33,504 bases of DNA, from IMG/VR virus record IMGVR_UViG_3300009285_007468, positions 1-33,504 of that record, one strand, 5' to 3'. The position numbers and the translations under genes were made by a program. Under the pieces are notes generated by a model. The model was not told the origin of the DNA. It saw only the letters and a program-made list of their open reading frames with translations, and did no database searches. Shown here piece after piece: positions 10,404 through 30,188 of this stretch. This DNA is from a virus. Numbering within the stretch: the stretch's first letter is position 1; the number at the start of each line of letters is the position of its first letter.

Positions 10404-11354
10404 ATGCAAACGCCAGATTTATCAATTATCATCCCGTCACGAGATTGTGAGTTCGCTTCAAAGACTGTAGATGACATCTTCGCGAAGGCAAAGGGGACCA
10501 TAGAAGTTGTCATCATGCTCGATGGTTATTGGCCAGACCCTCCTCTAAAAGATTACCCAAATTTGACAATAGTACACAAAGGAACCGCTCTCGGTATGCG
10601 TGACAGCATCAATCATGGAGTTGCCCTTTCTAAGGGAAAGTATATTCTTAAGTGTGATGACCACACGTCCTTTGCCGAAGGCTTCGACGAAATACTTAAG
10701 AAAGATTGTGAAGAAAACTGGATTTCCATTCCAAGCAGATATTCTCTTGATCCGATAAAATGGGAGAGAACAAGAGGTCCAATCCAATATATGTACCTTA
10801 CCTTTCCTTATGATCATCATGAGTTGTTTGGCACCGGATTTCATGGTGCCAAGTGGCATGGCCCAAAGGGACTGGAAGGCAGCTATTGGTATCTTGAGAA
10901 TGAACGTAAGAGAGGACCAAAGATCGATGACCTGATGATATTTCAGGGATCATGTTACTTCATGCATCGAAAGCATTGGGACTTTATTGAGGGTCTCGAC
11001 GAGGAAAATCACTATATCATGTATGACGAGGCCATTGAGCTGGATTTCAAGACATGGCTCTCAGGTGGAAGGGTTATCATCAATAAGAACACCTGGTATG
11101 CCCATCTTCATAAGGGAGTGACATACAAAAGAGATTTCCATTTATCAAAAAGACATAAGATAATGTCTGAGGTTTATAATACGGATTACTGGATGAACAA
11201 TAGATGGCCGAAGCAGACGAGACCGTTGAGGTGGTTGATAGAACACTTCTCTCCTCTGGATGGATGGCCAGAGGACTGGGATAACGTAGATAAGTATTTC
11301 GAGACGTGGAAGCACAAGGATTTATACAATCAGTTGTGGGGAAAGGAGAAATAA
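10404..11354 (+). CDS. Family 2 glycosyltransferase (GT-A fold)
   Basis: This encodes 316 residues, using the ATG behind GAGAGGAG. Family 2 enzymes move a sugar from a nucleotide-sugar donor. LSIIIPSRDCEFASKTVDDI opens the Rossmann-like half, VVIMLDGYWPDP follows, and KYILKCDDHTSFAEGFDE holds the acidic Asp-Asp donor/metal site near residues 85-95. LIFQGSCYF-type and GGRVIINKNTWYAHL strands form the acceptor side. There are no membrane segments, so it should act in the cytoplasm. It is a clear paralog of the N-terminal half of the protein at 18100, sharing the LDGYWPDP and FAEGFDE motifs. It overlaps the next gene by one base. Donor and acceptor are unknown. Confidence 0.85.
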   Translation: MQTPDLSIIIPSRDCEFASKTVDDIFAKAKGTIEVVIMLDGYWPDPPLKDYPNLTIVHKGTALGMRDSINHGVALSKGKYILKCDDHTSFAEGFDEILKKDCEENWISIPSRYSLDPIKWERTRGPIQYMYLTFPYDHHELFGTGFHGAKWHGPKGLEGSYWYLENERKRGPKIDDLMIFQGSCYFMHRKHWDFIEGLDEENHYIMYDEAIELDFKTWLSGGRVIINKNTWYAHLHKGVTYKRDFHLSKRHKIMSEVYNTDYWMNNRWPKQTRPLRWLIEHFSPLDGWPEDWDNVDKYFETWKHKDLYNQLWGKEK

Positions 11355-11953
11355 TGGGGGATCCGGTAAGGGCAACTACAAGGGCAATATTCAAGAAGTT
11401 TCACGTTCATCACGGGGACAATTTGCCTTTTGAAGGCTGGTGGCCAAGCACTCGCGAAACGCTTTTCGAGCTCTGGGGAGAGCTTGGTTATAAGGTAGGG
11501 GCAGAGATAGGGGTAAGGATGGGAACCAACTCTGCCGCCATACTGGCGAGAGTTCCTGGCGTGAAACTATACTGTATAGATCCCTGGAACGCCTACCTGC
11601 GAGTCACTGATAGTGTCCAGGACAGGTATTATGAGCGATGCGTGAGGAAGCTGGCTGGCAAGAACGTAGAGCTGATTAAAAAGACATCAATGGATGCTGT
11701 CGGAGACTTCGAGGATGGGAGTTTGGACTTTGTTTACATAGACGGACGCCATAATTTTTCCAATGTGCTTGAAGACATAATTTGTTATTATCCCAAGTTA
11801 AAACGGGGTTCGATCTGTTCTGGGCATGATTTTTATTCGTTTTTCGATTCTGGCGTCATAAATGCAGTCGATGCTTACTGTATGGGAAATAACATCAGCA
11901 AATTTTACGTGACACGTGAGAAAGCTCCAAGCTGGTTCTTCGTTAGAGAATAA
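11354..11953 (+). CDS. SAM-dependent methyltransferase, class I (Methyltransf_24-like)
   Basis: This encodes 199 residues, with ATG overlapping the previous stop (TAATG) and preceded by AAAGGAG. GYKVGAEIGVRMGTNSAAIL is a class I SAM-binding first loop, KLYCIDPW carries the acidic residue after strand 2, and SLDFVYIDGRHNFSNVLEDI is the family's later motif. The protein is a paralog of the one at 13418; the final GVINAVDAYCMGNNISKFYV parallels that protein's GVVRAVDAYTYSHNIRNWYI. The likely role is methylation of a sugar within this cluster, as other members modify glycans, but the substrate is inferred. Confidence 0.75.
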   Translation: MGDPVRATTRAIFKKFHVHHGDNLPFEGWWPSTRETLFELWGELGYKVGAEIGVRMGTNSAAILARVPGVKLYCIDPWNAYLRVTDSVQDRYYERCVRKLAGKNVELIKKTSMDAVGDFEDGSLDFVYIDGRHNFSNVLEDIICYYPKLKRGSICSGHDFYSFFDSGVINAVDAYCMGNNISKFYVTREKAPSWFFVRE

Positions 11954-11957
11954 GATC

Positions 11958-12938
11958 ATGATTAGACTGAATAGAAGAAAGAAATATTGTGCTTGTGGAT
12001 GTGGTGAAGAAGTTAAATTAAAACAGAAATATATTCGGGGTCATAATCGTCGTGGCAAATCTTCTTGGAATGCAGGTAAATCTTCTTGGAATGCTGGTAT
12101 ACATAAAGAAAAGCCAGTTTGGTTATGCGCTTGTAATTGTGGAGAATATGGCAAACCAGGCCGGAAGTTTATCAATGGGTATAATAGGAAAGGCATAAAT
12201 TTTGTTATGGCTGAGGAGCAGAAACAAAAGTTAAGAGTCCCTAAATCTAAATTGGCGAAACAAAATATGAAGGAAGCACAAAATCGACCTGAAGTAAAAG
12301 CAAAACGTAATATTACTTTCAATTCTATTTTAACAAAAAATAAAATGTCAAATTCTGCATTGATAGCCGGAGCCAGACCAGAAACAAAAGAAAAAAGATC
12401 TGTTGCTGCAAAAGAAATTGGGAGTAGACATGAAACAAAAGAAAAAAGATCTTCATATGGTAAAATTCCATGGGAAGATAGGGAAAATATGATTGCATTG
12501 CTTACCGCTGCAAGAAACCGACTAGAAGTAAAAGAAAGAAATTCAAAGAGGATGAAAAAGAAATGGAAGGAAGATATATTTGTCTCCAAACAAATGAAAG
12601 CCCGCCACGTCAAACAAAATAAACTCGAAAAGAAAGGTGAGGATTTATTTCATAAGTTATGTCCAAGTGAATATAAATTTACGGGTGATGGAGATGTCGT
12701 CATAGCAGGCAAGTGCCCAGACTTTATCAATATCAACGGTCAAAAGAAGATCATAGAGATCTATGGAGACTACTGGCACAGGGATGATAATGAGCAAGAT
12801 AGAATTGATACCTTTGCTAAATATGGTTACGATACTTTGATAATCTGGGAGCGCGAGTTCAAAGATATAGAGACACTGACAAAGAAGATAACGGATTTCC
12901 ACACTCGTGAAAATCCATATTCAATACACAAGGAATAA
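11958..12938 (+). CDS. Homing endonuclease with zinc modules and Vsr-like nuclease domain
   Basis: This encodes 326 residues. The N-terminus carries two Cys-x-Cys-x-Cys-Gly ... G(H/Y)N-(R/K)G zinc modules (YCACGCGEEVKLKQKYIRGH and WLCACNCGEYGKPGRKFING), separated by a short tandem GKSSWNA duplication. The middle is basic, with repeated (N)RPEVK-KR units likely to contact DNA. The C-terminus (about 240-326) holds KCPDFININGQKKIIEIYGD followed by YWH and an IIWEREF strand, a PD-(D/E)xK-type arrangement like very-short-patch-repair-type homing nucleases. It sits between two paralogous methyltransferase genes and breaks the operon. The ribosome site is weak. Two broken relatives lie at 4648 and 26641. 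Cleavage specificity is unknown. Confidence 0.75.
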   Translation: MIRLNRRKKYCACGCGEEVKLKQKYIRGHNRRGKSSWNAGKSSWNAGIHKEKPVWLCACNCGEYGKPGRKFINGYNRKGINFVMAEEQKQKLRVPKSKLAKQNMKEAQNRPEVKAKRNITFNSILTKNKMSNSALIAGARPETKEKRSVAAKEIGSRHETKEKRSSYGKIPWEDRENMIALLTAARNRLEVKERNSKRMKKKWKEDIFVSKQMKARHVKQNKLEKKGEDLFHKLCPSEYKFTGDGDVVIAGKCPDFININGQKKIIEIYGDYWHRDDNEQDRIDTFAKYGYDTLIIWEREFKDIETLTKKITDFHTRENPYSIHKE

Positions 12939-12939
12939 T

Positions 12940-13431
12940 ATGCATCCCGAGTCATATAAGATAGTCGAAGATTTTGCCGCTGAGTTCATCAAGGGAGAAA
13001 ATCTGAGGATCTGTGACGTTGGGAGTCTTGACATCAACGGGACGTATAGACCTATCTTCAGGGATCGTCACCATTATATGGGGATAGACATTCGTCCTGG
13101 ACCAAATGTCGATATTACTGTTCAGCCCTACGCGTATCCATTTGACGATAGTTATTTTGATGTGATAGTGTCTGGACAGACAATGGAACACATAGAGGAC
13201 ATATATGCGTGGATGGACGAAGTGGCGAGGGTGGCTAAGAACCTTGTTTGCATCATCGTTCCATGGCAATGGGGGCCACACAGGGAGCCAGTTGATTGCT
13301 GGAGGATATTGCCGGATGGAATGCGGTTTCTTTTTGATAGATCTGGATTGGAAGTTATAAAGATTTGGACTGATCAGTCATCTTGTATTGGAATTGCGAG
13401 AAAGAAAGGAGGAAAGAGTGGATCCAAATGA
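12940..13431 (+). CDS. SAM-dependent methyltransferase (Methyltransf_11-like)
   Basis: This encodes 163 residues, starting at ATG behind AAGGA. RICDVGSLDINGTYRPIF is a variant SAM-binding loop, YMGIDIRPGPNVDITV carries the acidic residue after strand 2, and FDVIVSGQTMEHIEDIYAWM is a typical motif post-I region. The loop lacks the usual GxGxG, so it may bind SAM weakly or differently. Length is near the lower limit of the family. It sits two bases after the endonuclease gene and overlaps the next methyltransferase by 14 bases. The probable substrate is a glycan or nucleotide-sugar. Confidence 0.7.
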   Translation: MHPESYKIVEDFAAEFIKGENLRICDVGSLDINGTYRPIFRDRHHYMGIDIRPGPNVDITVQPYAYPFDDSYFDVIVSGQTMEHIEDIYAWMDEVARVAKNLVCIIVPWQWGPHREPVDCWRILPDGMRFLFDRSGLEVIKIWTDQSSCIGIARKKGGKSGSK

Positions 13432-14032
13432 AATCATTAGGAAAAAACTTGATATAAGGAAAATCTCAAGTCCTCCAATTCTTGCATGGATCGGAACAGG
13501 CAGACATAAGTTACATGATGAGAGCATAGGGAGAAACCTCCTTGCGGAATTGTTTAAGGAACTTGGATATAAGAATGGAGTAGAAATAGGAGTCGACAGA
13601 GGATATTACTCAGACGTTCTCCTCTCAAAGAATCCAGACTTGCATCTGACAGGGGTCGATTCTTGGGTTGGCGATAAGGCAGAAACTCATTTTCGAGATG
13701 CTAAACAGAGACTTTCCAAACATGGTGATCGAATCGAATTGATGAAGATGAGAAGTCTTGATGCGGTGAAGGTATTTCCTTGGAATTCTCTCGACTTTGT
13801 TTATCTGGATTCTAATCGTTCATTCAATGATATTAGTCTTGATCTTATTAATTGGGGCAGACGAGTGAGGCAGGGAGGAATGATCGCTGGCAGAGGGTAC
13901 TGCCACCTGTTCGAGACAGGAGTTGTTCGGGCTGTAGACGCCTATACGTACTCACATAACATTAGGAACTGGTACATAACGCGGGATATAGAACCCAACT
14001 ACTTATGGATCAAACACTGGGAGAGCAAGTAA
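13418..14032 (+). CDS. SAM-dependent methyltransferase, paralog of the 11354 gene
   Basis: This encodes 204 residues from a GTG start behind a perfect AGGAGG five bases upstream. KNGVEIGVDRGYYSDVLL is the SAM loop, HLTGVDSW the strand 2 region, and SLDFVYLDSNRSFNDISLDL the later motif. The match with the gene at 11354 extends along the whole chain, so the pair arose by duplication and then diverged, with the homing endonuclease and a third methyltransferase now between them. It overlaps the next gene by one base (TAATG). Different methylation positions on one glycan would explain keeping both. Confidence 0.72.
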   Translation: MDPNEIIRKKLDIRKISSPPILAWIGTGRHKLHDESIGRNLLAELFKELGYKNGVEIGVDRGYYSDVLLSKNPDLHLTGVDSWVGDKAETHFRDAKQRLSKHGDRIELMKMRSLDAVKVFPWNSLDFVYLDSNRSFNDISLDLINWGRRVRQGGMIAGRGYCHLFETGVVRAVDAYTYSHNIRNWYITRDIEPNYLWIKHWESK

Positions 14033-14670
14033 TGCCAAGATACATGGAAGATAACCTCAACATGCATTTGCATAGTGTGTTGAGGATGATGCAAAGCCGT
14101 ATTGTCAATAAGACTTCATACATGGGTATTCATACCACGAAGAACCCTCTTGATATGTGGGTCTATCAGGAGATCATCTATGAGACGAAGCCAGATGTCA
14201 TAATCGAGATTGGTTGTGGCAGGGGAGGTTCAAGTTTATGCCTGGCAAATTTGTGTAATAATATCAATCATGGTCGTGTCCTTGGGATAGATGTGGATCT
14301 ATGGAAGCATCCAAGGGTGATTGATCATCCAAGAATAAAATTACTTGAAGGAGATGCTAACCAATTAATTGACAAGGTTAAGGAACTTACATTCAACTGT
14401 AAGGACATTATGGTAATAGAAGATAGTTCACATACTTATGACAACACACTCGACTTATTGAGGTTCTATTCACCATTTGTAAGGGAAGACAATTACTTCA
14501 TAGTCGAGGATAGCAATTGTTATCATGGAATCAATCGAGGTCCTTATCCTGGACCTTATGAAGCAATTGAGACATTCTTGCAAGAGAATCCAGATTTTGA
14601 AAGCGACAGGGAAAAAGAATCTTTCTTCATTACATGGAACCCAAAAGGTTACCTGAGGCGAAGAAAATAA
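14032..14670 (+). CDS. CmcI/cephalosporin-hydroxylase-like methyltransferase
   Basis: This encodes 212 residues, with ATG overlapping the previous stop. KNPLDMWVYQEIIYETKPDV, then IIEIGCGRGGSSLCLA and VIEDSSHTYDNTLDLLRFYS are strongly reminiscent of the CmcI family, whose members include sugar O-methyltransferases such as rhamnosyl O-methyltransferase. The SAM loop GCGRGGS is complete, and the HTYDNT motif is typical. No membrane segment is present. With its neighbours it forms a chain of overlapping genes, suggesting a shared substrate. A sugar O-methyltransferase is the best reading, but the name cephalosporin hydroxylase is only a family label. Confidence 0.75.
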   Translation: MPRYMEDNLNMHLHSVLRMMQSRIVNKTSYMGIHTTKNPLDMWVYQEIIYETKPDVIIEIGCGRGGSSLCLANLCNNINHGRVLGIDVDLWKHPRVIDHPRIKLLEGDANQLIDKVKELTFNCKDIMVIEDSSHTYDNTLDLLRFYSPFVREDNYFIVEDSNCYHGINRGPYPGPYEAIETFLQENPDFESDREKESFFITWNPKGYLRRRK

Positions 14671-15473
14671 TGAGAGATATTTCTTTTTTCTTTAATCCCT
14701 ATGGGGCAGGAGAAATAGATGGAAGGCAAATTGGGGAGTTTCTTCAAGCGAAACTCAATCCTACAGCTGGATATCAAGATGATATTTGCATTTACGTCAA
14801 ATGCCAGCCTCCAGAATGTTTGCCTGAACATTCTTATGTCAACATAGTTGATGGCGTCGGGCTGATTGGATGGTTGTTGAGGCATCCAAGAGTTGGGGTA
14901 ATTGCCACATCAAAGACTGCGCAGGAATATTTGATTGAAGTCCTTGATAGAGATGTTCAATTTATCCCGGAACATCATTGTAATTGTGAGAGAGATAAAA
15001 GAACCAGAGAAGAGATAACTACGGTTGGGATGATAGGAAACATTAAAGGATTTGATTGCGACCTTGAATATGCTAAGAAGCGTTTCAATGATATTGGAAT
15101 GAAGTTCATTTGGAAGTCAAATTATAGCAATAGATTTGACGTGATAAACTTTTATAAGAAGATAGATATCCAGATTAACTGGAGGCCACACGTCAGTGGT
15201 GTCCATGCCAAGTTGCATAATCCCCTGAAGCTTGCGAATGCAGCTTCATTCGGTATCCCCACGGTATCGTATCCAGAAGAAAACTACGTAAAAGAATTTA
15301 GCGGATACTTTCTGGCTCCAGACAAGATAGAAGACTTATTTGATGAGGTGACGATACTCAAGAACCGGCCAGAGTATCACCAGGCTTACTCAGAACTGCT
15401 CTTAAAGAAGGCCGAACAATATCATATAGAGAATGTTACAAAACTGTACAGGCAGCTTCAGGAGGATTTATGA
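14670..15473 (+). CDS. Glycosyltransferase, GT-B-like
   Basis: This encodes 267 residues, overlapping the previous stop (TAATG). The N-terminal half is short for the fold. The C-terminal half reads like GT-B acceptor/donor regions: TTVGMIGNIKGFDCDLEYAK, YKKIDIQINWRPH, and PLKLANAASFGIPTVSYPEE, where the K-A-A-G-P stretch resembles the donor-binding loop of family 4-like enzymes. The EE pair normally follows this loop. No transmembrane segment is seen. It probably adds one sugar in the cluster's pathway. The family is not certain. Confidence 0.6.
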   Translation: MRDISFFFNPYGAGEIDGRQIGEFLQAKLNPTAGYQDDICIYVKCQPPECLPEHSYVNIVDGVGLIGWLLRHPRVGVIATSKTAQEYLIEVLDRDVQFIPEHHCNCERDKRTREEITTVGMIGNIKGFDCDLEYAKKRFNDIGMKFIWKSNYSNRFDVINFYKKIDIQINWRPHVSGVHAKLHNPLKLANAASFGIPTVSYPEENYVKEFSGYFLAPDKIEDLFDEVTILKNRPEYHQAYSELLLKKAEQYHIENVTKLYRQLQEDL

Positions 15474-15575: not shown

Positions 15576-16694
15576 GTGATCCCTTTATTCAAGGTGTTCA
15601 TGGCAGACAATGTTGCTGATTTTGTTCTTCCTGTTCTGAGGTCAGGATATATAGGAGAGGGAGAACAATGCAAAGAATTCGAGAAGAAGTTTGGAGAATA
15701 TATCCAGAATGGGAATGTTGTACTGGTGAACTCGGGAACGTCAGCTTTAATCATGGCATTGAAACTTGCTGAAATAGGTTATGGGGACATGGTTGTTTCT
15801 ACCCCTATGACATGCTTAGCCACGAATATGGCTATTCTTTCTGTCGGAGCGGACATCATCTGGGCAGATATTCTTCCAGATGGGACAATCAATCCAAAAG
15901 ATGTTGAGGAGAAGTTAAAAGATTTTCATTGGAAGGCAATTTATCATGGTATAAATAAACTTATGCCAAAGGCTATTATGTGCATGGATTGGGGAGGGAT
16001 GCCTTGTAAGTTGAATGAGTTGAGGGATATAGGAGACATATTCGATATTCCGGTTATAGAAGATGCCTGCCAGGCATTAGGATCGCAATATGAAAGAGAA
16101 CTAATAGGGAATTGTGCAGATTTCGTTGCATTTTCGTTCCAGTCGATAAAACAACTTACATCCATAGATGGAGGAATGTTGGCTATCAATGATCCAAACC
16201 TTGTTGAAAAGGCGAAGATGATGAGGTGGTTTGGCCTCGACAGGAACAGCGGAGCAGATATGCGTTGTAATCAAGATCCTCCAGTCGCAGGCTACAAGTG
16301 GCAGATGAATGACGTGCTGGCATCTGTCGGATTGGCGAATATTAGACATCTTTCTGACATAATTGAAAAGACAAAAAAGCATGCACAGTATTACAATGAT
16401 AGATTTGGGATTGAAACAGATTCAGAAAGAGAATCTGGATATTGGTTATATACGATTTTTGTTAATAATGTCGATTATTTTATTCAATACATGAAGGGTA
16501 ATAATATCGAATGCTCAAAAGTCCATGACAGGAATGACACCAAGACTATCTTCAAGAAGTCGAGGACGTATTTACCAGGGGTTGATCATTTTGATAAGCA
16601 TCATGTCTGCGTGCCCGTTGGGTGGTGGCTTACAGACAAAGATGTAGAGGGGATAGCGTCATTGGTATTGGGTTATAGGAGAAAGTATGAGTAA
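15576..16694 (+). CDS. DegT/DnrJ/EryC1/StrS sugar aminotransferase
   Basis: This encodes 372 residues from a GTG start, the usual family length. These PLP enzymes convert keto-sugar nucleotides to amino-sugar nucleotides. VLVNSGTSALIMALKLAEIG is the cofactor phosphate region, PVIEDACQALGS holds Asp163 that contacts the pyridine nitrogen, and FSFQSIKQLTSIDGGM holds the probable Schiff-base Lys192. RWFGLDRN and KWQMNDVLASVGLANI are further family signatures. It acts in the cytoplasm. Together with the epimerase at 20162 it implies that a dedicated nucleotide-sugar, probably aminated, is made for the cluster's transferases. The exact sugar is unknown. Confidence 0.88.
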   Translation: MIPLFKVFMADNVADFVLPVLRSGYIGEGEQCKEFEKKFGEYIQNGNVVLVNSGTSALIMALKLAEIGYGDMVVSTPMTCLATNMAILSVGADIIWADILPDGTINPKDVEEKLKDFHWKAIYHGINKLMPKAIMCMDWGGMPCKLNELRDIGDIFDIPVIEDACQALGSQYERELIGNCADFVAFSFQSIKQLTSIDGGMLAINDPNLVEKAKMMRWFGLDRNSGADMRCNQDPPVAGYKWQMNDVLASVGLANIRHLSDIIEKTKKHAQYYNDRFGIETDSERESGYWLYTIFVNNVDYFIQYMKGNNIECSKVHDRNDTKTIFKKSRTYLPGVDHFDKHHVCVPVGWWLTDKDVEGIASLVLGYRRKYE

Positions 16695-16884: not shown

Positions 16885-17029
16885 GAATCTGGTAGAAAAA
16901 GAGATTGAAAGAAATGGGATAGGGAGTCCAGAAATAGATTACATTTATATTTCTACTGCTGGCATTCGTAATAATGAAATTAATATAGAAGTGATTGATA
17001 ATGAACTTCGTATCTCGGCTGCAGAATAG
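16865..17029 (+). CDS. Small 54-residue ORF
   Basis: The ORF begins inside the end of the previous gene and ends two bases before the ATG of the next glycosyltransferase, filling the only gap in this stretch. The product starts MNWDTFKNLVEKEIERNGIG and continues as alternating strands and turns. The ribosome site is weak. Tight fit between neighbours supports it as a real gene, but it may be only coupling sequence. No family recognised. Confidence 0.4.
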   Translation: MNWDTFKNLVEKEIERNGIGSPEIDYIYISTAGIRNNEINIEVIDNELRISAAE

Positions 17030-17030
17030 A

Positions 17031-17756
17031 ATGAAGCTGTCTGTCGTTATCCCCATACTGAATTCCCATAAGGCGGTGTCAAGGCAGATCAAGCATTTCA
17101 ATATGATGAAGTTGCCTGACGACATAGAGTTTGTTTTCGTTGATGACGGAAGTAATCCTCCCTTGGATGCGAAAGATTATCAGCTGAAGAACCTCAGGAT
17201 CATGATGACGAATGACAAGAGGAACTGGACGCAGGGATTAGCAAGGAATCTTGGAGCGAGAGAGGCGATAGGAGAATATCTATTCATGACGGACATAGAT
17301 CATATTCTTTCCAAGGAAGCCTTGCTTGCAGCGCATGATTTCATTGGGGACAAGATGGTGTTTCCACGATACATAGCAGTTTTGACGATTGGTGGAAGGA
17401 TACGCCAAGATTCAGCAATTCTCCAGGCATATGGGTTTGACATGAACCGTTATCAGAGGGGAAGGAAAAGGCTCTATGCGAGTTTTCATGGAAACACCTT
17501 CGTAATGAAGAAAGAAACATTCTGGAAGCTTGGAGGATATAAGTCAAAACATTGCTTATATGGGTATCACGCCCCTGTGAAGAAGGGCGAAGACTGTTAT
17601 TTCAACACACAGTGGAAGCATTATGCAGCAGAACAAGGACTTAAGATCGAGATTGGGCCAAAAATATTTTTGTTTCCGGTTGGAAGATTCAATAAAGCAG
17701 GAGATAACAATCCCAGAGGTCTTTTTCATGGATTGAGTTATGAACCAAATAGGTAA
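17031..17756 (+). CDS. Family 2 glycosyltransferase
   Basis: This encodes 241 residues. MKLSVVIPILNSHKAVSRQI is a textbook GT2 start, IEFVFVDDGSNPP holds the first acidic pair, and EYLFMTDIDHILSKEAL contains the DxD donor/metal motif near residue 88. FHGNTFVMKKETFWKLGGY is the typical later acceptor region. There are no membrane segments. It is compact compared with processive synthases, so it probably transfers one sugar. Earlier in-frame ATGs exist, but 17031 gives the standard GT2 N-terminus. Confidence 0.85.
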   Translation: MKLSVVIPILNSHKAVSRQIKHFNMMKLPDDIEFVFVDDGSNPPLDAKDYQLKNLRIMMTNDKRNWTQGLARNLGAREAIGEYLFMTDIDHILSKEALLAAHDFIGDKMVFPRYIAVLTIGGRIRQDSAILQAYGFDMNRYQRGRKRLYASFHGNTFVMKKETFWKLGGYKSKHCLYGYHAPVKKGEDCYFNTQWKHYAAEQGLKIEIGPKIFLFPVGRFNKAGDNNPRGLFHGLSYEPNR

Positions 17757-18099: not shown

Positions 18100-19773
18100 A
18101 TGCCATATGATTTATCAATCGTTATCCCCGCTCGGAACGAAATTTTCTTGTCGAGGACAATCGAGGACATTCTTAAGAATATTAAAGGGAATACTGAAAT
18201 TATTGCTGTTCTTGATGGGTATTGGCCAGATCCTTCAATAGAAGATGATCATAGAGTTACATTGGTTCATCATACTGAATCTATAGGACAAAGGTCCGCT
18301 TGCAATGAGGCTGTTAGATTATCTAAGGCAAAGTACATCCTTAAATGTGACGCTCATTGCTCATTTGCAGAAGGTTTTGACGAAGTTCTCATGAAAGATA
18401 TGAAAGATGATTGGACTGTTGTTCCAGCTATGAGAAACCTTCATGTTTTTGACTGGGTATGTAAGAAATGTGGGACAAGAAGTTATCAGGGAATTACACC
18501 TGTAAGTTGTCTTAAATGTGATAATACAGAACATTTTGAGAAAGATATTGTCTGGATAGGGAAATCAAATCCCATAAGTACATCTTATTGTTTTGATCCA
18601 CAACCGCATTTCCAATACTTCAAGGAGTTTAAGCATAGGCCAGAAGGCAAGGGAGATCTTACAGAAACAATGTCTCTTCAAGGGTCTTGTTTCATGCTCA
18701 CGAGGGAGAAATATTGGGAGTTGGATGTCTGTGAGGAAAAGTTCGGAAGCTGGGGTTCACAAGGAATTGAGGTGTCCTGTAAGACTTGGTTGTCGGGAGG
18801 AAGGGTAATCGTCAATCAGAAGACATGGTATGCCCATATGTTTCGCACGAAGGGAGGAGATTTTGGGTTTCCATATCCGATCAGTGGCAGGCAGATCCAG
18901 TCTGCAAAAAGTTATGCGAGGGATTTGTTTTTCAACAACAAATGGCCGAAACAGAAATATCCTATCTCTTGGCTGGTAGAGAAATTCTGGCCAGTTCCGG
19001 GATGGTCTCAGGAGCAACTTGATGAATTAAAGAAAGGAGAAAAGATAGAAATCTCGGAACCAGATGTCACTCCTGTTCCCCACATGAGTTGCGAGAGAAA
19101 AGGCCCGACAAAGGGGATCGTCTATTACACAGACAACAGATGCGAAGATAGGATACTTCATCTGTGCCAAGATCATCTGAAGAAAGCTGTCGGAGATGCA
19201 AGGATCATCAGTGTGTCATTGAAATCAATCAAGTTTGGCGAGAATATAGTCCTTGATCTTGAGAGGGGATACCTGACAATGTTCAAACAAGTGTTGGAGG
19301 GGATTGAGAGATGTGAAACGGATGTGATCTATTTATGCGAGCATGACGTCATTTATTCTCCAGAGCACTTTGAGTTCATCCCTCCGACGAGAGACAAGTT
19401 CTACTACAATATAAGCAACTGGCAGGTGAGGGCAATGGATGGGCATGCCGTCTATTGGGACTGCAAGAAGGTCAGCCAGGTATGTGCATACAGAGATTTG
19501 ATTCTTGAACATTACAGAAAAAGAGTTAAGATGGTTGAAGAAATTGGATTTTCAAGAAGAATGGGATTTGAACCTGGAACTCATCATAGAGAAGCTCGTG
19601 TAGATGATACTACCTCTGATTTTTTTTCTACCGAGATTGCAAATCTTGATATAAGGCACTCAAAGAATCTTACTTCTTCAAGATGGAGTCCAAACGAATT
19701 TAGAAATCCATGTAAGAATTGGAGAGAATCTCATGTCAATCGACTTCTTGGGTGGGAGAATTTGAAATTATGA
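18100..19773 (+). CDS. Two-domain glycosyltransferase with inserted zinc knuckle
   Basis: This encodes 557 residues. Residues 1-320 are a family 2 transferase paralogous to the protein at 10404: LSIVIPARNEIFLSRTIEDI, VLDGYWPDP, KYILKCDAHCSFAEGFDE and GGRVIVNQKTWYAHM. An insertion at 121-140 carries Cys-x2-Cys ... Cys-x2-Cys (CKKCG and CLKC), a probable zinc knuckle absent from the paralog. Residues about 330-557 form a second GT-A-like domain beginning GIVYYTDNRCEDRIL with the acidic YLCEHDVIYSPEHF motif. Such fusions usually make two consecutive linkages. It overlaps the next gene by 4 bases (ATGA). No membrane segment. Substrates are unknown. Confidence 0.8.
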   Translation: MPYDLSIVIPARNEIFLSRTIEDILKNIKGNTEIIAVLDGYWPDPSIEDDHRVTLVHHTESIGQRSACNEAVRLSKAKYILKCDAHCSFAEGFDEVLMKDMKDDWTVVPAMRNLHVFDWVCKKCGTRSYQGITPVSCLKCDNTEHFEKDIVWIGKSNPISTSYCFDPQPHFQYFKEFKHRPEGKGDLTETMSLQGSCFMLTREKYWELDVCEEKFGSWGSQGIEVSCKTWLSGGRVIVNQKTWYAHMFRTKGGDFGFPYPISGRQIQSAKSYARDLFFNNKWPKQKYPISWLVEKFWPVPGWSQEQLDELKKGEKIEISEPDVTPVPHMSCERKGPTKGIVYYTDNRCEDRILHLCQDHLKKAVGDARIISVSLKSIKFGENIVLDLERGYLTMFKQVLEGIERCETDVIYLCEHDVIYSPEHFEFIPPTRDKFYYNISNWQVRAMDGHAVYWDCKKVSQVCAYRDLILEHYRKRVKMVEEIGFSRRMGFEPGTHHREARVDDTTSDFFSTEIANLDIRHSKNLTSSRWSPNEFRNPCKNWRESHVNRLLGWENLKL

Positions 19774-20165
19774 AAGTATTTTTGGGAGGGACTTGCAATG
19801 AATCTACATGGAGAGACACTCTAATTTCAATGTTAAAGATTGATTTTTTCAATCCGGTAGTTGACGATTGGACTTCAGACTGTATGGCTGAAGAATTATG
19901 GCAAAGAAAGATATGTGATTATTGTTTGTATGTTATAACTCCTAAGATGACAGGAGTATATTCGATTGCTGAAGTTGTTGATGACAGTAATAAAAGACCA
20001 ACAAAAACCATATTTGTATGTTTAAAGAAAGATGGCAGTTCAATATTTAACGATGGTCAATGGAAATCAATAAATGCAGTTGCTAAAATGGTTGAGCAAA
20101 ATGGAGCAATGGTGTTTTTTGAATTGGAAAAGTCTGCTTTTTATTTAAATAGAAAGGCTCCATGA
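19770..20165 (+). CDS. Nucleoside 2-deoxyribosyltransferase-like protein
   Basis: This encodes 131 residues from an ATG overlapping the previous stop. KVFLGGTCNESTWRD, then FFNPVVDDWT, CDYCLYVITPKMTGVYSIAE and VVDDSNKRPTKTIFV match the Nuc_deoxyri_tr2 pattern, a Rossmann-like fold handling nucleosides or nucleotide-sugars. True members swap bases on deoxyribose, but many genomic copies have unknown substrates. Sitting inside a nucleotide-sugar cluster it might recycle or hydrolyse a nucleotide by-product. That role is inference. Confidence 0.7.
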   Translation: MKVFLGGTCNESTWRDTLISMLKIDFFNPVVDDWTSDCMAEELWQRKICDYCLYVITPKMTGVYSIAEVVDDSNKRPTKTIFVCLKKDGSSIFNDGQWKSINAVAKMVEQNGAMVFFELEKSAFYLNRKAP

Positions 20166-21001
20166 TTATGAAAATCTTAGTTACCGGAACAAATGGCTTT
20201 ATAGGAAAAAATCTAATAGACCGTCTATTGGCAGAAAGTCATGAGGTAGTTAATTTCTATGGTGATAGACGAGAAATAGATACTGTTATTCATCTTGCTG
20301 CAATAGCCGGGATCAAACCAGAATTGCAGAAAGTAAAAGAACATTATCAAGTGAATGTTCTTCAAACAGTTGAATTACTTGAATTTTGTATTAATCATAA
20401 AATCCCCAATTTTGTATTTATTTCTTCTTCGTCGGTATATGGAAATAATGGGGGTAGGCCATCATTAGAGACAGATCCTACAGACACTCCTCTGTGTCAT
20501 TATGCTGCTACCAAAAAGGCAGGAGAACTTGCTTGTTATACTTATCATCATATGTACGGTATTAATATCACATGCTTGAGATTGTTTACAGTTTATGGTC
20601 CAGGGCAGAGGACAGAAATGGCCATTCCTTTATTTACTAGATTAATCCAACAGGGACAGGAGATAATCATGTTTGGTAATGGTTATAGAGATTATGTTTA
20701 TATAGATGATGTCGTAGATGCCATTGTTTCATCTTTACATTCTAATAAAGGATATTCTATCTATAATATTGGTAGTTCTCAAAAGACAGATCTTGTCAGG
20801 TTGATATTTAATATTGAAGATTTTATAGGTAAGAAATCCAAAATTAAATATCAACCAAATCCAATTGGTTATGCTCAATCCACATGGGCAAATATAGAAA
20901 AAGCAAGGGAAGAGCTTAGATATAATCCACAAGTGATGATTCGAGAAGGATTATATAAATATATTGATTGGTATCTAAAGAATCCAAACAATAAATTTTA
21001 A
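20162..21001 (+). CDS. NAD-dependent sugar epimerase/dehydratase (short N-terminus)
   Basis: This encodes 279 residues of the extended SDR family, which acts on nucleotide-sugars. MKILVTGTNGFIGKN gives the GxxGxxG NAD site (Gly9, Gly12, Gly15), and SSSSVYG with Tyr114-x3-Lys118 (YAATK) are the catalytic residues. RLFTVYGPGQR and YRDYVYIDDVVDAI are family motifs. Only about 25 residues separate the first strand from IDTVIHLAA, some 25-30 fewer than usual, so the adenine-side strands are missing or rebuilt. The gene ends exactly where promoter motif copy 4 begins. It probably supplies the sugar donor together with the aminotransferase at 15576. Confidence 0.85.
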   Translation: MIMKILVTGTNGFIGKNLIDRLLAESHEVVNFYGDRREIDTVIHLAAIAGIKPELQKVKEHYQVNVLQTVELLEFCINHKIPNFVFISSSSVYGNNGGRPSLETDPTDTPLCHYAATKKAGELACYTYHHMYGINITCLRLFTVYGPGQRTEMAIPLFTRLIQQGQEIIMFGNGYRDYVYIDDVVDAIVSSLHSNKGYSIYNIGSSQKTDLVRLIFNIEDFIGKKSKIKYQPNPIGYAQSTWANIEKAREELRYNPQVMIREGLYKYIDWYLKNPNNKF

Positions 21002-21023
21002 AAGTGCATTTTTTCATTTATAT
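20996..21023 (+). promoter_or_regulatory. Promoter-like motif, copy 4 (TTTTAAAA-N13-TTTATAT)
   Basis: TTTTAAAA at 20996-21003 and TTTATAT at 21017-21023 keep the 13-base spacing of the other copies, with one change in the first element. It overlaps the last codons of the epimerase gene and precedes the first gene of the lysis cassette, whose ATG at 21037 has AAGGA at 21028-21032. This copy therefore marks the border between the glycan block and the lysis block. Confidence 0.5.
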
Positions 21024-21036
21024 GAATAAGGACATC

Positions 21037-21240
21037 ATGTATAAAAAGGTTGAACCAGTTTCCGTTGCTACCATGGTGCGAACAAGATATAAGGGCCATC
21101 ACACAATTTGTGAAACCTTGCGTGAGATATACGTCTTATCTGAAAATGAAGAGATCAAGATAAAATGTAGGATCGCTGTTGCAATGGCGAAATCTATGCA
21201 CAACAAATTAAAATGGTATAAGGCAAATAGTAAGGCTTAA
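21037..21240 (+). CDS. Small basic helical protein
   Basis: This encodes 67 residues. The ATG at 21037 is preferred over an in-frame ATG at 21022 because AAGGA precedes it and the other lies inside the promoter-like motif. The product is helical and Lys-rich, ending KWYKANSKA, without membrane segments. A Thr/Val/Ala-rich start is followed by two helices (ICETLREIYVLSEN and IKCRIAVAMAKSMHNKLKW). It overlaps the next gene by one base. No family recognised, though its size and position fit small lysis-cassette leaders. Confidence 0.45.
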   Translation: MYKKVEPVSVATMVRTRYKGHHTICETLREIYVLSENEEIKIKCRIAVAMAKSMHNKLKWYKANSKA

Positions 21241-25887: not shown

Positions 25888-25889
25888 AT

Positions 25890-26588
25890 ATGCCCGCTTC
25901 CCCATCACCCTCAGAGTCTCCATCTTTAAGTCCAAGTGAGAGCCCTTCACTTTCTCCTTCGATTTCACCAAGTTTATCTCCCAGTGCATCGGAATCACCA
26001 TCTGCTTCTCCTTCATTGAGCCAATCAGCTTCTGAGTCTCCGTCGGCCAGTCCATCGGTTTCTCCAAGTTCTTCTCCATCTGTCAGTCCTTCATTAAGTC
26101 CTTCGGCATCGCCTTCTGCATCTCCAAGTGTTTCTCCATCTGAGTCACCAAGCCCTTCGCCAAGTGCAGGAGTATTTGGTCTTGAAGAAGCAATAATGAC
26201 AAAATTCAATGCATTGAGAAATGACGGAAGTAACAATGATTTTTATACAAGCATCGGAGGCCGACTATATAATACTCAGGCTCCTCAGAATGCCATATTC
26301 CCTTTTACAGTGTTTACAGAAATCTCTGATGTAAATGAATATACTTTTACGACAAATTTTGAGAACGTTTTGATCCAGTTCTCTTTGTTCAGCACGGAAG
26401 AGGCTGTTTCAGAGATAAGGGACATGTTCACATATTGCAAGAGCTTATTTGACTGGTGTTCCCTTTCGATTTCTGGATATGCATTTCTATATATGAGAAG
26501 AGAGAATTCTTATCTGACAAAAGACGATAGACCGGCATGGCAAAGGATTGTTGAATATCGGGTGCAGTTTGAGTATGGAGATTACTAA
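25890..26588 (+). CDS. Tail terminator-like protein with N-terminal Ser-Pro repeat
   Basis: This encodes 232 residues. Residues 2-93 are a Ser-Pro-Ser-X array like the one on the protein at 8286. The domain proper, about 95-232, starts GLEEAIMTKFNALRNDG and includes LYNTQAPQNAIFPFTVFTEI, a central FTTNFENVLIQFSLFST strand and IVEYRVQFEYGDY, the pattern of the DUF3168/gp11-like tail completion proteins. Such proteins cap the tail tube. The array would project from the neck or tail end. ATG 25890 is preceded by GGGAG. Attachment of a low-complexity array to a completion protein is unusual. Confidence 0.75.
   Translation: MPASPSPSESPSLSPSESPSLSPSISPSLSPSASESPSASPSLSQSASESPSASPSVSPSSSPSVSPSLSPSASPSASPSVSPSESPSPSPSAGVFGLEEAIMTKFNALRNDGSNNDFYTSIGGRLYNTQAPQNAIFPFTVFTEISDVNEYTFTTNFENVLIQFSLFSTEEAVSEIRDMFTYCKSLFDWCSLSISGYAFLYMRRENSYLTKDDRPAWQRIVEYRVQFEYGDY
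25893..26168 (+). repeat. Second Ser-Pro-Ser-X coding repeat array
   Basis: About 276 bases encode residues 2-93 of the tail terminator-like protein. The unit is the same as in the array at 9149 (Ser-Pro-Ser with Ala, Leu, Glu or Val), with an occasional Gln, Ile or Ser. Codons vary, as in the first array. Its N-terminal rather than C-terminal position shows that the array was joined to the two proteins separately. Confidence 0.85.
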
Positions 26589-26592
26589 TAAA

Positions 26593-26620
26593 TTTTAAGA
26601 CATAGATTTTCTATTTATAT
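26593..26620 (+). promoter_or_regulatory. Promoter-like motif, copy 3 (TTTTAAGA-N13-TTTATAT)
   Basis: TTTTAAGA at 26593-26600 and TTTATAT at 26614-26620 keep the 13-base spacing. It begins 4 bases after the tail terminator stop and leads to an AAGAGGAA site and the TTG at 26641 of a zinc-module homing endonuclease remnant. The copy at 4585 precedes a related zinc-module ORF. Confidence 0.6.
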
Positions 26621-26640
26621 ATGAAGAAGAGGAATAAGAT

Positions 26641-27564
26641 TTGAAAGGATCTCAACTATGTGAATGTAAATGTGGTGGATATGCCAAGCCTGGAAGAAAA
26701 TTTATTCTGGGCCACAATAATAAGGGTATAAAAGGACTGGGAATTGGTCGTATTCCTTGGAATAAAGGGCTAAAAGGCTTTTCAAGTGGATGGTTAAAAG
26801 GAAAGAAACAAACCCCTGAGCATATTGCTAAACGTGTCGCAAAACAAATAGGAAGTAAACGTTCGGAAAGCACAAAAGGAAAAATGAGTGTTTCTAAAAA
26901 AGGAGAAAAGAATCCATTTTATAATAAACATCATATCCAAGAAACAAAAGAAAAAATATCGGTAAAAAACAAGGGTCGCAAACAATCAGATGAGGAAAGA
27001 AATAGAAGATCTATTTCCCAAAAAATAGTGTAAAATAAGCCAGAAATAAAAGAAAAAAGATCTAAATCGGAAAAAATTGCCCAAAATCGTCCAGAAAGAA
27101 AAGAAAAACAAATAAAATTTATGAAAGAAAAATGGGCAGACCCAGGGTGGAAAGCTAAACAATCACAGTTAATTAAGAATGTATGGGCAGATCCAGAACG
27201 AAAAGAATTTCAACTACTTGCTATTGGTAAAGGACTAAATCGGAAACCTAATAATCCTGAATCGTTTTTGCAAATTAAATTTTGGATTTGGTGTCAAACA
27301 ATAATTTATAGTGGTGATTATTCTGTCGTTATAAACGGTAAAAATCCAGATTTTATATGTCTTGAAAAGAAAAAGATTATTGAATTTAATGGTTCTTATT
27401 GGCATCGGAATGATATCCCTGGAGAACATGAAAGATTTTTTGCTGAAGTTGGATATGATACTTTGATTTTAGTGGATAAAGATCTCTTAGATATGGAAGC
27501 TTTGAGAATTAAAATAGATACTTTTATGGAAAGGCCAAATCCTTATATCACACTTATGGGATAG
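26641..27564 (+). pseudogene. Homing endonuclease with an in-frame stop
   Basis: The frame starts at a TTG (MKGSQLCECKCGGYAKPGRK once initiated). An N-terminal Cys-x-Cys-x-Cys-Gly ... GHN-KG zinc module and repeated basic units follow. At 27031-27033 a TAA interrupts it. In the same frame it continues NKPEIKEKRS and ends with INGKNPDFICLEKKKIIEFN, GSYWHRND and DTLILVDKD, the same PD-(D/E)xK-type C-terminus as in the intact gene at 11958. At the stop the intact relative reads AQNRPEVKAKR, so a CAA to TAA change (Gln to stop) is the simplest explanation. Total length would be 307 residues. Suppression or a two-subunit enzyme is possible but not shown. Confidence 0.7.
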
Positions 27565-27570
27565 GTGTAA

Positions 27571-28353
27571 ATGTCTATATCGATCATAATACCATATTGT
27601 AATGCGAATGAATTCACAGAGGAATGCCTCAGGTCGATCAAAAAGCACACAAAAGACTATGAGATAATCCTCATCGACAATGGGTCAAAAGACCTTCTCG
27701 AGTTGTCTGAGAACGAAATGTCCATATGCCTGATAAGAAATGAGGAGAACCTCGGCTTCCCGAAAGCTGTCAACCAGGGACTGGCAAGGGCGAAGGGAGA
27801 TTATCTTTGTGTTTTGAACAATGACATAATCGTTGTGCCTGGTTGGGCAGAGAGATTGATATGGCACCTTGAATGCGGGATTGATGTCATAGGGCCGAGG
27901 ACAAACTCGATATCTGGTCCTCAGGCATTGCTTGTCGACAGGTACGACAACATCGAGGAGCTGAACAGAGAATCAGAATCTCTCTACAAGAGGGAGAAAC
28001 ATAATCGTTTTCCGTTTTATCGACTTGTCGCGTTTTGTGTCGTGATGAGAAGATGGGTTTATGAGATGATCGGGGGATTTGACGAGGTGTTCTCTCCTGG
28101 GAACTATGAGGATGATTCATATTGTTTAGAAGCAATAGACAAGGGGTTCAAGCTGGCGGTCGCAAATGATGTTTTCATGCATCATTGGGGTTCTGTAACC
28201 CACAGGAATCTTGACATTGATTACGTTTCTCTGCTGAAGAGGAACCAGAAGATATTTGAGTCTAAGTGGTCGAAAGAGAAGATAAAAGAGCTTTCAGCCA
28301 AGAATATGGAGGCAGTAAATGGTGCGAAAAGAGAAGTCTTCAATTGGCATTGA
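27571..28353 (+). CDS. Family 2 glycosyltransferase
   Basis: This encodes 260 residues. ISIIIPYCNANEFTEECLRS opens the fold, ILIDNGSKDLLE follows, ENLGFPKAVNQGLARAKGDY is the classic third motif, and LCVLNNDIIVVPGW holds the Asp donor/metal site. FVVMRRWVYEMIGGFDEVFS and GNYEDDSYCLEAIDKGFKLA with MHHWGS close the acceptor half, as in rhamnosyl- or mannosyl-transferase-like GT2 enzymes. There is no membrane segment. It overlaps the methyltransferase gene by 35 bases. It opens the second glycan block, placed between the neck and tail-tube genes. Confidence 0.88.
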   Translation: MSISIIIPYCNANEFTEECLRSIKKHTKDYEIILIDNGSKDLLELSENEMSICLIRNEENLGFPKAVNQGLARAKGDYLCVLNNDIIVVPGWAERLIWHLECGIDVIGPRTNSISGPQALLVDRYDNIEELNRESESLYKREKHNRFPFYRLVAFCVVMRRWVYEMIGGFDEVFSPGNYEDDSYCLEAIDKGFKLAVANDVFMHHWGSVTHRNLDIDYVSLLKRNQKIFESKWSKEKIKELSAKNMEAVNGAKREVFNWH

Positions 28354-28843
28354 TGAAGACATGCCGATTGGAGAAATAGAAAAAGTAATAAGACTGAATC
28401 TTGGATCTGGTTTCAAGACTGAGACCGGAGAAGAATGGATAAACATAGACAAGAGAGAAATTACGAATCCTGATATGGTTCATGACATAGAGACAGGACT
28501 GCCATTCCAAGATAACTCTGTCGACATGATACGAGCTCATGATATCCTCGAACACATTCATCCTGACAAGGTCCCGTTTGTGATGTCCGAGATCCACAGG
28601 GTTCTGAAGCCCGAAGGATACCTGCACTTCTTCATCCCAAGCACAGATGGCAGAGGCTGGGCAATGGACCCGACTCACAGATCATTCTGGAACATTAACA
28701 GTTGGCTCTATTATATTGATCCTGATTGGCATGCTCTTTATCCAGAGCTTCCGATGTTTAGGGCAGAAAGGATTCAGGATGTCTGCCTGAATGAACAACT
28801 TAGGATAATCCACACAGAAGGTAAGGTTTATCCGGTGAAGTAA
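28319..28843 (+). CDS. SAM-dependent methyltransferase (Methyltransf_11-like)
   Basis: This encodes 174 residues starting inside the previous gene, with GGAGG upstream of the ATG. RLNLGSGFKTETGEEWINID forms the SAM loop, VDMIRAHDILEHIHPDKVPF is motif post-I, and EIHRVLKPEGYLHFFIPSTD is the typical motif III of this family. HRSFWNINSWLYYIDPDW continues the pattern of sugar or small-molecule methyltransferases in glycan clusters. It overlaps its downstream neighbour by one base. Its substrate is inferred to be a glycan. Confidence 0.8.
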   Translation: MVRKEKSSIGIDEDMPIGEIEKVIRLNLGSGFKTETGEEWINIDKREITNPDMVHDIETGLPFQDNSVDMIRAHDILEHIHPDKVPFVMSEIHRVLKPEGYLHFFIPSTDGRGWAMDPTHRSFWNINSWLYYIDPDWHALYPELPMFRAERIQDVCLNEQLRIIHTEGKVYPVK

Positions 28844-29511
28844 TGGAGATAAAGGTTTGCGCTCTTGTAGATAACATAGGGATATTGATTGGGAATCTCA
28901 TGACCTCCCGGATAGACGGAAACTTGGGATTTATCATGAATTCAAAAAGTGCAACAGAGGGGATGAACAAGTTGTTTGACAAGTGTTCCAAGGCAGACGT
29001 GGTCGTGATGGTTCATCAGGACGTCATCTTCCCGTTTGATTGGATAGAAAAGACAGAGCGATTATTGAATGATCTTCCTGCTGATTGGGGAATTGCTGGT
29101 ATCTGGGGTACCAAATTGGTTAACGGAAGGCAAGCTCCAGTTGGTAGGATTGCAGATACAAGGATGAGCAAATTGTCACCTGGTGGTCACTTCTGGAAGG
29201 GACAAATGCCATGCAGGATCGATTCCCTTGACGAGGTCTGCCTCATCTTCAACATGAAGACGGAATTCAGGTTTGAGGAAGAGTTCGAAGGGTTTGACCT
29301 TTACGGGACATATGCCTGTCTGAGAATGAGAGAGATGGGGTATGAGGCATACGTGATCGACAACGCGGTTATGCACAACACGTCAAGACCAATGAAGTGG
29401 ATGCCAGATGAGAAATTCCTTTCATCCTGGGGATGGTTGAAAGAGAGATTCCCTGGTCAAGGCATAGTTTCAACAGTTTATGATGAAGGTTTTAATAAGA
29501 GGAAAGATTGA
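28843..29511 (+). CDS. Glycosyltransferase-like protein (Glyco_tranf_2_5-like)
   Basis: This encodes 222 residues, ATG overlapping the previous stop. VVMVHQDVIFPFDWIEKTER is the HQDV motif of this GT-A subgroup, often next to other phage and O-antigen transferases. WGIAGIWGTKLVNG, EVCLIFNMKTEFRFEEEFEG and DLYGTYACLRMREMGYEAYV make up the following acceptor region. No first Rossmann signature is as clear as in the other GT2 proteins. Enzymatic activity is likely but the family is defined mainly by similarity. It overlaps its downstream neighbour by 4 bases. Confidence 0.7.
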   Translation: MEIKVCALVDNIGILIGNLMTSRIDGNLGFIMNSKSATEGMNKLFDKCSKADVVVMVHQDVIFPFDWIEKTERLLNDLPADWGIAGIWGTKLVNGRQAPVGRIADTRMSKLSPGGHFWKGQMPCRIDSLDEVCLIFNMKTEFRFEEEFEGFDLYGTYACLRMREMGYEAYVIDNAVMHNTSRPMKWMPDEKFLSSWGWLKERFPGQGIVSTVYDEGFNKRKD

Positions 29512-30188
29512 GTCTTACAGTAACTAACTTCAAGCTGGGAGTGGGGATTCCGTTAAGCTGGACGCATGTGCCTTCAGCATTCTTCGAGAGCTTCATACAG
29601 ATGGAGAAGCCGAATTTCACCTATCTGCCAGCACATAACGGACCGATTGATGGTCTTCGTAACTATATTATAGAACAGGCGATTGCAACTGGATGCAGCC
29701 ACTTGTTGCTGATGGATGCTGACCAGATCTATCCTGTTGACACGATAACGAGGTTGCTCTCTCATAGGCTGCCGGTCGTGCATGGGATGGTGTTTCGGAG
29801 ATATCCGAACTTCGACAACCTCCTCTTCAAGGGAGAGATAAACCATTACACGAACATGATGGAAGGGGTCGATTATACGGATGGTGATTTGGTAGAGGTT
29901 GACGCAATAGGAACCGGATGCGCCTTGTATGACGTTCGTGTGTTTCTCGACATAGAGCAGCCATGGTTTGAGTTCATCCCTAATCCTGATACCGAAAAGG
30001 GAGGGGTGGTCGGAGAGGATATCTGGTTTGCTCAGAAGCTACACAAGGCAGGATACAAGATCTATTGTGACACAGGTGTGAAGATCGGGCATCTGACGAT
30101 GTTCACAATAGACGAGAACTTCAGCAGGCTTTATCAGTCTTTGCTGAAGAGGCAAATGGAAATAAACAAGAGGAATGATTCTTCATAG
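29508..30188 (+). CDS. GT-A-fold glycosyltransferase-like protein, TTG start
   Basis: This encodes 226 residues from a TTG behind AAGAGGAAAG. CSHLLLMDADQIYPVDTITR contains the DxD motif, and VDAIGTGCALYDVRVFLDIE and GEDIWFAQKLHKAGYKIYCD are typical of a broad GT-A group seen in phages. It lacks a classical GT2 N-terminus, opening with FKLGVGIPLSWTHVPSAFFE instead. A terminator follows at 30225, closing the second glycan block. Donor and acceptor are unknown. Confidence 0.7.
   Translation: MSLTVTNFKLGVGIPLSWTHVPSAFFESFIQMEKPNFTYLPAHNGPIDGLRNYIIEQAIATGCSHLLLMDADQIYPVDTITRLLSHRLPVVHGMVFRRYPNFDNLLFKGEINHYTNMMEGVDYTDGDLVEVDAIGTGCALYDVRVFLDIEQPWFEFIPNPDTEKGGVVGEDIWFAQKLHKAGYKIYCDTGVKIGHLTMFTIDENFSRLYQSLLKRQMEINKRNDSS

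Follow-up and report, generated by a model that had tools for sequence, protein, structure and literature searches.

Glycan genes and Ser-Pro repeat proteins in a phage structural region

We analyzed a window of 33,504 bases comprising one IMG/VR virus record (IMGVR_UViG_3300009285_007468) from an uncultured bacterial virus. Scans with PHROGs and Pfam identified the window as the structural region of a tailed phage, with genes for a prohead protease, major capsid protein, head-tail connectors, a tail terminator, two major tail proteins and a tail-assembly chaperone. A run of glycan-related genes at 10.4-21.2 kb (block 1) is a mobile cassette, and its best explanation is probably that structural proteins of the phage are O-glycosylated in the cytoplasm in a mucin-like manner, with Ser-Pro repeat (SPSx) proteins as the proposed acceptors. 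An initial annotation of this DNA had described a glycan-synthesis system in two blocks; library scans found every gene class that it listed, whereas the Ser-Pro repeat proteins beside the cassette were a link that it had not made. The genes of both blocks and of the two proposed acceptors are encoded on the plus strand.

The first proposed acceptor, a structural-region protein at 8286-10013, consists of an N-terminal domain of ~290 amino acids (aa) followed by a 282-aa SPSx tract with 140 Ser and 66 Pro residues (50% Ser, 23% Pro), mainly in a period of 4. Residues 59-148 of the N-terminal domain were 49% identical to an SPSx protein located upstream of the glycosyltransferase gene GT2a in another phage, G035, and a protein search of catalogued phages with the domain gave no match. 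The second proposed acceptor is the tail terminator (25890-26588), in which an N-terminal SPSx tract (residues ~1-95) precedes the region matching phrog_176 (residues 109-227, E 1.8e-9). Adjacent SPS units in the 8286-10013 protein had identical codons at 54 of 192 positions (28%) compared to ~25% computed from codon frequencies for independent synonymous choice, indicating that the amino-acid pattern of the repeats is maintained while the DNA diverges. In phage G033 a tract was also found in the open reading frame (ORF) downstream of GT2c. A small protein of a function-unknown family (10019-10375; phrog_13761, E 1.8e-17) lies between the first acceptor and GT2a.

GT2a (10404-11354; PF00535, E 3e-8) is a GT-A enzyme and the proposed priming transferase. 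Its paralogy to the N-terminal half of GT2c (18100-19773), recognized in the initial annotation, was confirmed at 43% identity (E 2.9e-62), and the two form one family whose nearest solved relatives, as judged by profile and model, are eukaryotic polypeptide GalNAc-transferases (ppGalNAc-Ts). A profile built from nine GT2a and GT2c N-half sequences, compared with the PDB, ranked ppGalNAc-Ts first (E 7e-10); most of these matches spanned the whole catalytic domain, while proteins other than ppGalNAc-Ts aligned over only ~80-100 N-terminal residues. With an AF2 model of GT2a built on a 59-sequence alignment (predicted local distance difference test score, pLDDT, 93.8), all of the top 50 chains returned by Foldseek were ppGalNAc-Ts, and re-alignment of Foldseek's own candidates with VIA-align placed ppGalNAc-Ts in all of the first 29 entries (Z 23.2-26.2), the next family following at Z 19.1. 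Residues D85, H87 and H234 were invariant across the 59 homologues, and this D-x-H and distal His align with the metal-binding DxH and HVF region of ppGalNAc-Ts. No ricin-type lectin domain was found in GT2a (316 aa), the 59 family members matching PF00535 only, with a second GT2 model in three, and no membrane anchor was evident (maximum hydropathy 0.95). Since the metal ligands are kept but the WGGEN motif, lectin domain and anchor are absent, GT2a resembles family GT27 and is not classed there.

The next gene, MT1 (11354-11953; PF13578), encodes an S-adenosylmethionine (SAM) methyltransferase and belongs to the core of the cassette. It is accompanied by MT2, a class I SAM methyltransferase (12907-13431; PF08241, E 1e-6), MT3, an MT1 paralogue (13388-14032; PF13578), and a CmcI/rhamnosyl O-methyltransferase family member (14005-14670; PF04989, E 9e-43; CmcI chain, E 1.8e-8), so that the five methyltransferase-type genes originally reported (11306, 12907, 13388, 14005 and, in block 2, 28319) were all recovered. 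An MT1/MT3 profile had no match among solved structures. Further glycosyltransferases include GT2b (16995-17756; PF00535, E 2e-13) and a GT-B-like enzyme (14634-15473), a predicted assignment for which the gene is present but the matches are weak (E 1.5e-4 to a PHROG glycosyltransferase and, for a profile of four sequences, E 7e-4 to a GT-B C-terminal domain). The C-terminal domain of GT2c (residues ~337-557) contains an ExD motif, stands alone as a protein in other cassettes and matched neither Pfam nor a solved structure; an AF2 model of GT2c computed without an alignment (pLDDT 33) was discarded.

Donor-supply candidates comprise a DegT/DnrJ/EryC1/StrS sugar aminotransferase (15576-16694; PF01041, E 3.9e-67), as previously annotated, which matched solved sugar-aminotransferase chains including CalS13 at E 3e-46 to 1e-54, and a short-chain dehydrogenase/reductase (SDR) nucleotide-sugar epimerase (20162-21001; PF01370, E 2.3e-47). 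The epimerase was thus correctly recognized, but compared to homologues in G032, G033 and G035 it lacks ~30 aa of the NAD-binding Rossmann N-half, between beta-2 and beta-4, and because of these missing residues its activity is uncertain and possibly impaired. The proposal that the phage has its own nucleotide-sugar supply therefore holds only in part: some supply genes are present, but the window contains no 4,6-dehydratase and the epimerase is shortened. The deoxyribosyltransferase-like gene of the initial annotation was also recovered as a nucleoside 2-deoxyribosyltransferase-like (Nuc_deoxyri_tr2-like) gene (19719-20165; PF15891, E 4.1e-10), with homologues in 0/69 GT2a loci. A small conserved protein (21004-21240, g21004) found in 15/69 GT2a loci and 0/80 controls lies at the cassette end; it carries a TRYxGHHxICxTLRDIY-type motif and closes many cassettes, with two copies in some. 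No transmembrane-like segment was found in the cassette enzymes.

Co-occurrence with repeat tracts and distribution of the cassette

GT2a-family loci were taken as the best 80 of at least 504 IMG/VR candidate stretches, 69 of them non-redundant at 90%. Ser-Pro or Ser-rich tracts were present in 51 of these 69 loci compared to 5 of 80 random loci (p 1e-18), in which all tracts were short, and in 33/38 GT2a loci of at least 15 kb. Tracts lay on the same strand as the glycosyltransferase at a ratio of 79:1. Among capsid relatives without GT2a (384 kb in total), a tract occurred in 1/19. MT1 homologues were found in 58/69 GT2a loci and 0/80 random loci, and a GT2c match in 69/69, a count that takes in cross-matches to GT2a. 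The converse sample was drawn with an SPSx DNA pattern (at least 120 stretches) and contained eight records in which the SPSx-type tract reached 100 residues or more, as judged by eye. Six of these eight, selected only by their long tracts, encoded the glycosyltransferase family, the remaining two being fragments of 10-13 kb, compared to none of 14 records whose Ser-Pro tracts were short or of another type and none of 28 random records (0/42 together; p 2e-6). Endolysin relatives were sought as a control set and none were found.

Relatives of the window were retrieved through the capsid protein and through GT2c. G012 (capsid 51% identical) has GT2a, MT1, GT2c and the small protein g21004 in the interval from capsid to head-tail connector genes, as in the window, while in the capsid relatives G001 (67%), G007 (61%) and G017 (64%) this interval is only 2.4-3.8 kb. 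Comparison of the blocks among relatives, proposed in the initial annotation, yielded a conserved set, so that the lack of any such set, named there as a refutation, was not observed. G035, retrieved by its 75% identical GT2a, shares ten genes at 44-75% identity, and beyond the cassette BLAST detected nothing similar to the window except one SPSx protein. The identities were 75% for GT2a, 60% for the CmcI-type gene, 72% for MT1, 60% for MT3, 57% for the GT-B-like gene, 58% for DegT, 63% for GT2b, 67-69% for GT2c, 44% for the epimerase and 70% for g21004, of which G035 has a second copy (41%) after MT3. Gene order was the same as in the window except that the CmcI-type gene precedes MT1 instead of following MT3. 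No match was found in G035 to the 11916-12938 endonuclease, MT2, the deoxyribosyltransferase-like gene or the small genes 16687 and 17769.

GT2a, MT1 and GT2c occurred with other neighbours in G029, G031, G032, G033, G036-G038, G045 and G060. Supply genes included cytidylyltransferase-like, GHMP kinase, SIS isomerase, RmlD-like and UDP-sugar dehydrogenase genes in G033 and SIS and GHMP genes in G032, while G012 carried a sulfotransferase and a radical SAM gene. Because these genes differ between phages, a core can be distinguished from cargo, the supply genes being the variable part of the cassette. Similar sets recur in many phages, which argues that the gene set is not a chance assembly; the earlier view of a coherent, apparently undescribed glycan-synthesis pathway was borne out, in that the cassette is conserved and includes methylation genes as well as some genes for donor supply. 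Neither a nucleotide search of catalogued phages with block 1 nor a tblastn search of 50,697 catalogued phage records with GT2a and GT2c gave a match.

The GT2a family was also found by genome scanning in 38 bacterial loci, nearly all in metagenome-assembled genomes (MAGs) titled as candidate phyla radiation (CPR)/Patescibacteria lineages. Contigs L279 and L285 carried ordinary chromosomal genes beside the cassette (FtsE/FtsX-, TsaE- and BipA-like, assigned by eye), and SPS tracts were present in L273, L279 and L286. On these last three MAG contigs, which come from different lineages, the cassette lies near the same two genes, one of them Y1-type transposase-like and the other encoding a membrane protein of ~200 aa (L273:12725-14385, L279:7896-9892, L286:5215-6967). 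In a 59-sequence tree, phage and bacterial rows were interleaved with 7 changes, at least 6 of them forced by supported branches, suggesting repeated exchange or mis-binning; this says nothing on the host of the window, whose GT2a falls in an 18-row phage-only clade. Prevalence of GT2a was low: among genomes sampled from the phylum of G113, 4/287 carried it, including two seeds, and for the phylum of G125 the count was 1/294, this one genome being the seed itself. A capsid match at 31-37% identity occurred in 2/287 Patescibacteria genomes and was no more specific than matches to catalogued phages.

Block 2 comprises GT2d (27571-28353; PF00535, E 1.2e-24), a class I methyltransferase (28319-28843; PF08241, E 1.7e-10), GT2e of the PF13712 type (28843-29511; E 1.7e-9) and GT2f (29508-30188), assigned from library scans and comparison of relatives. 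Together with GT2b, these account for the other GT-A-type genes of the initial annotation (16995, 27571, 28843 and 29508). The description of genes overlapping throughout was not upheld, as there are gaps of 102 bases near 15.5 kb and 110 bases near 16.9 kb, and the two blocks are separated by 6.5 kb with genes for an endolysin, connectors and the tail terminator. GT2f directly precedes a major tail protein gene in the window, G012 and G014, and lies beside the tail terminator in G020. Since G014 and G020 have neither the GT2a family nor SPSx tracts, block 2 is better read as a separate, phage-lineage gene set, and the two blocks are probably not one split system. The GT2f-like gene beside the tail genes of G014 (G014:C1:20352-21523, L053), a capsid relative that lacks the SPSx cassette, possibly serves a separate tail-protein glycosylation. 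Two major tail protein genes at 30267-31145 are tandem paralogues.

One gene within block 1 lies outside the glycan pathway. The protein encoded at 11916-12938 matched nothing in Pfam, PHROG or PADLOC; from its sequence it appears to be a VSR/homing-type endonuclease with zinc-ribbon repeats and is likely a mobile insertion. The repeated motifs are zinc-ribbon-like, of the form CxCG...GHN, and recur in putative VSR/homing-type endonucleases at 26641-27564, where the copy is broken into two frames (26641/27121), and at 4698-4904, an orphan ribbon; similar proteins were found in G017, G029 and G045. Elsewhere in the window, the prohead protease ORF (364-2898) encodes 844 aa, of which only about the first 160 residues form the S78 domain, the rest being a long extension.

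Proposed mechanism and alternative explanations

We propose that GT2a, perhaps with the GT2c N-half, would attach the first sugar, supplied by a nucleotide donor, to Ser (or Thr) of the SPSx repeats, and that this priming of phage structural proteins would occur in the cytoplasm during late expression. The chain may then be extended by the GT2c C-terminal domain, GT2b and the GT-B-like enzyme, with donor sugars adjusted from host precursors by the DegT aminotransferase and the epimerase. MT1, MT2, MT3 and the CmcI-type enzyme are predicted to methylate the glycan, and the outcome would be a bottlebrush-like coat on head/neck-associated proteins. The repeats would thus be acceptors present in the virion, with a presumed sugar, linkage and order of action, and the coat may serve in shielding, adhesion or protection. 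The methylated oligosaccharide suggested initially is unlikely to be a free one, as the priming enzyme is similar to protein O-glycosyltransferases and Ser-Pro repeat proteins accompany the cassette.

Several observations weigh against mucin-like glycosylation of the repeats. The WGGEN motif of Gal/GalNAc-transferases is not conserved in alignments of the GT2a family, which has YDEAIE or QExxE instead, and the donor may therefore not be GalNAc. With the exception of the tract fused to the tail terminator, no SPSx protein matches an annotated virion family, so that their presumed placement in the virion is deduced from gene position. SPSx tracts are matched by phrog_15511, implying that similar tracts exist in some library phages although GT2a and GT2c are unmatched in the 50,697 records. 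A tract was lacking in 18 of the 69 GT2a loci (13 under 15 kb and 5 not), and the random controls for that comparison were not matched for phage type or length (680 kb compared to 1.24 Mb in total for GT2a loci). Within loci, the distance from tract to glycosyltransferase was not below random placement (observed median 688, permuted mean 692), and the link is therefore one of co-occurrence, not fine adjacency. The chemistry as a whole is deduced from computation rather than biochemistry.

Glycosylation of the virion could instead be directed at capsid and tail-tube proteins, with the SPSx tracts serving only as unglycosylated disordered spacers. Such targets are reported, in secondary accounts, for mycobacteriophages Che8, Corndog and Myrna, and block 2 immediately precedes two major tail protein genes. 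We nevertheless regard this as unlikely, since SPSx tracts and GT2a predict each other in both directions although GT2a occurs in phages whose remaining genes do not resemble those of the window, and since only 1/19 capsid relatives without GT2a have tracts. A role in building a host-surface glycan, through O-antigen conversion or capsule change for superinfection exclusion, would leave the SPSx proteins as unrelated structural linkers; it would agree with weak PHROG matches of GT2b and GT2d to GtrB-like O-antigen conversion and with a study of Patescibacteriota phages that interprets nucleotide-sugar genes as host-surface modifiers (PMC12911398). This role is distinctly unlikely given the location of the cassette in the structural region, the co-occurrence with SPSx tracts in both directions and the lack of transmembrane-like segments in its enzymes. 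The initiating polyprenyl-phosphate sugar transferase (PF02397) and Wzx-type flippase (PF01943) were likewise found in 0/31 GT2a-bearing records, absences weakened by the fact that many of these records (up to 175 kb, the longest 113-175 kb) may be incomplete.

Hypermodification of phage DNA by glycosylation has been described as a function of some phage glycosyltransferases (Pyle et al. 2024, as cited in PMC12619734), and the deoxyribosyltransferase-like gene would fit such a function. The resemblance of the priming enzyme to protein O-glycosyltransferases makes it highly improbable here, as does the finding of a thymidylate-synthase/hydroxymethylase family member above cut-off in 0/30 GT2a-bearing records, with one sub-threshold match containing stops, although the records are perhaps not complete and the window itself has no replication region. 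Cytoplasmic mucin-like O-glycosylation of the SPSx proteins thus remains our preferred explanation.

Comparison with known systems

A broader proposal, for and against which we judge the balance to be even, is that block 1 represents an undescribed prokaryotic mucin-type system. A ppGalNAc-T-like enzyme pair and a core methyltransferase would form a cassette mobile among unrelated phages and CPR chromosomes, each copy having its own Ser-Pro 'viral mucin' and swappable donor-sugar and decoration genes, together yielding a changeable virion glycan brush. If so, an enzyme fold familiar until now mainly from animals and protists is used by phages to make mucin-like glycoproteins, and such cassettes travel between unrelated phages and CPR bacteria. 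The system would also provide glycoengineering with small soluble transferases, explain in a testable way why viral metagenomes contain SPSx repeat proteins and give a clue to the self-presentation of phages that infect hard-to-culture bacteria. That at least 504 IMG/VR stretches encode relatives but tblastn matched neither GT2a nor GT2c in the catalogued phages would explain why it has been overlooked so far. Our literature search, which left most subscription papers outside its reach, turned up no account of Ser-Pro repeats in phages paired with ppGalNAc-T-like enzymes.

In Gram-positive serine-rich repeat (SRR) systems, priming is carried out by GtfA/GtfB, which are GT-B enzymes, and the product is exported by an accessory Sec system, whereas a GT-A primer and a virion-bound product are proposed here. 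A general Pfam scan of the cassette genes, in which no dedicated GtfA/GtfB model was run, detected no GtfA/GtfB. SRR glycoproteins (Fap1, GspB, SRRP) are described as having long Ser-rich repeats that are glycosylated intracellularly, in the case of Fap1 through a gene cluster (PMC5207161, PMC7948813). The cassette has glycosyltransferases, an epimerase, an aminotransferase and nucleotide-sugar genes in common with O-antigen conversion (Gtr) and capsule loci, and differs from them in that no lipid-carrier transferase or flippase was detected in the 31 records.

Mycobacteriophage virion glycosylation (Freeman et al. 2023, as reported in PMC12619734, PMC11256854 and PMC12363180) is similar in that the glycosyltransferases are phage-encoded, those of the window in or near the structural module; the mycobacteriophage enzymes are said to modify the phage's own virion proteins. 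The reported targets are capsid and tail-tube proteins, at their C-termini, whereas repeat proteins are the proposed targets here, and GT2a and GT2c are unmatched in catalogued phages. The closest likeness is to the eukaryotic ppGalNAc-Ts (GT27), with which GT2a shares the catalytic fold (Z 23-26) and the D-x-H and distal His metal ligands, and to mucin-type O-glycosylation, in which Ser/Pro-rich tandem-repeat proteins are the acceptors, as proposed here. GT2a differs from these enzymes in being only 12-19% identical, in having no ricin-type lectin domain, transmembrane-like segment or WGGEN motif, and in being encoded by phages and CPR bacteria.

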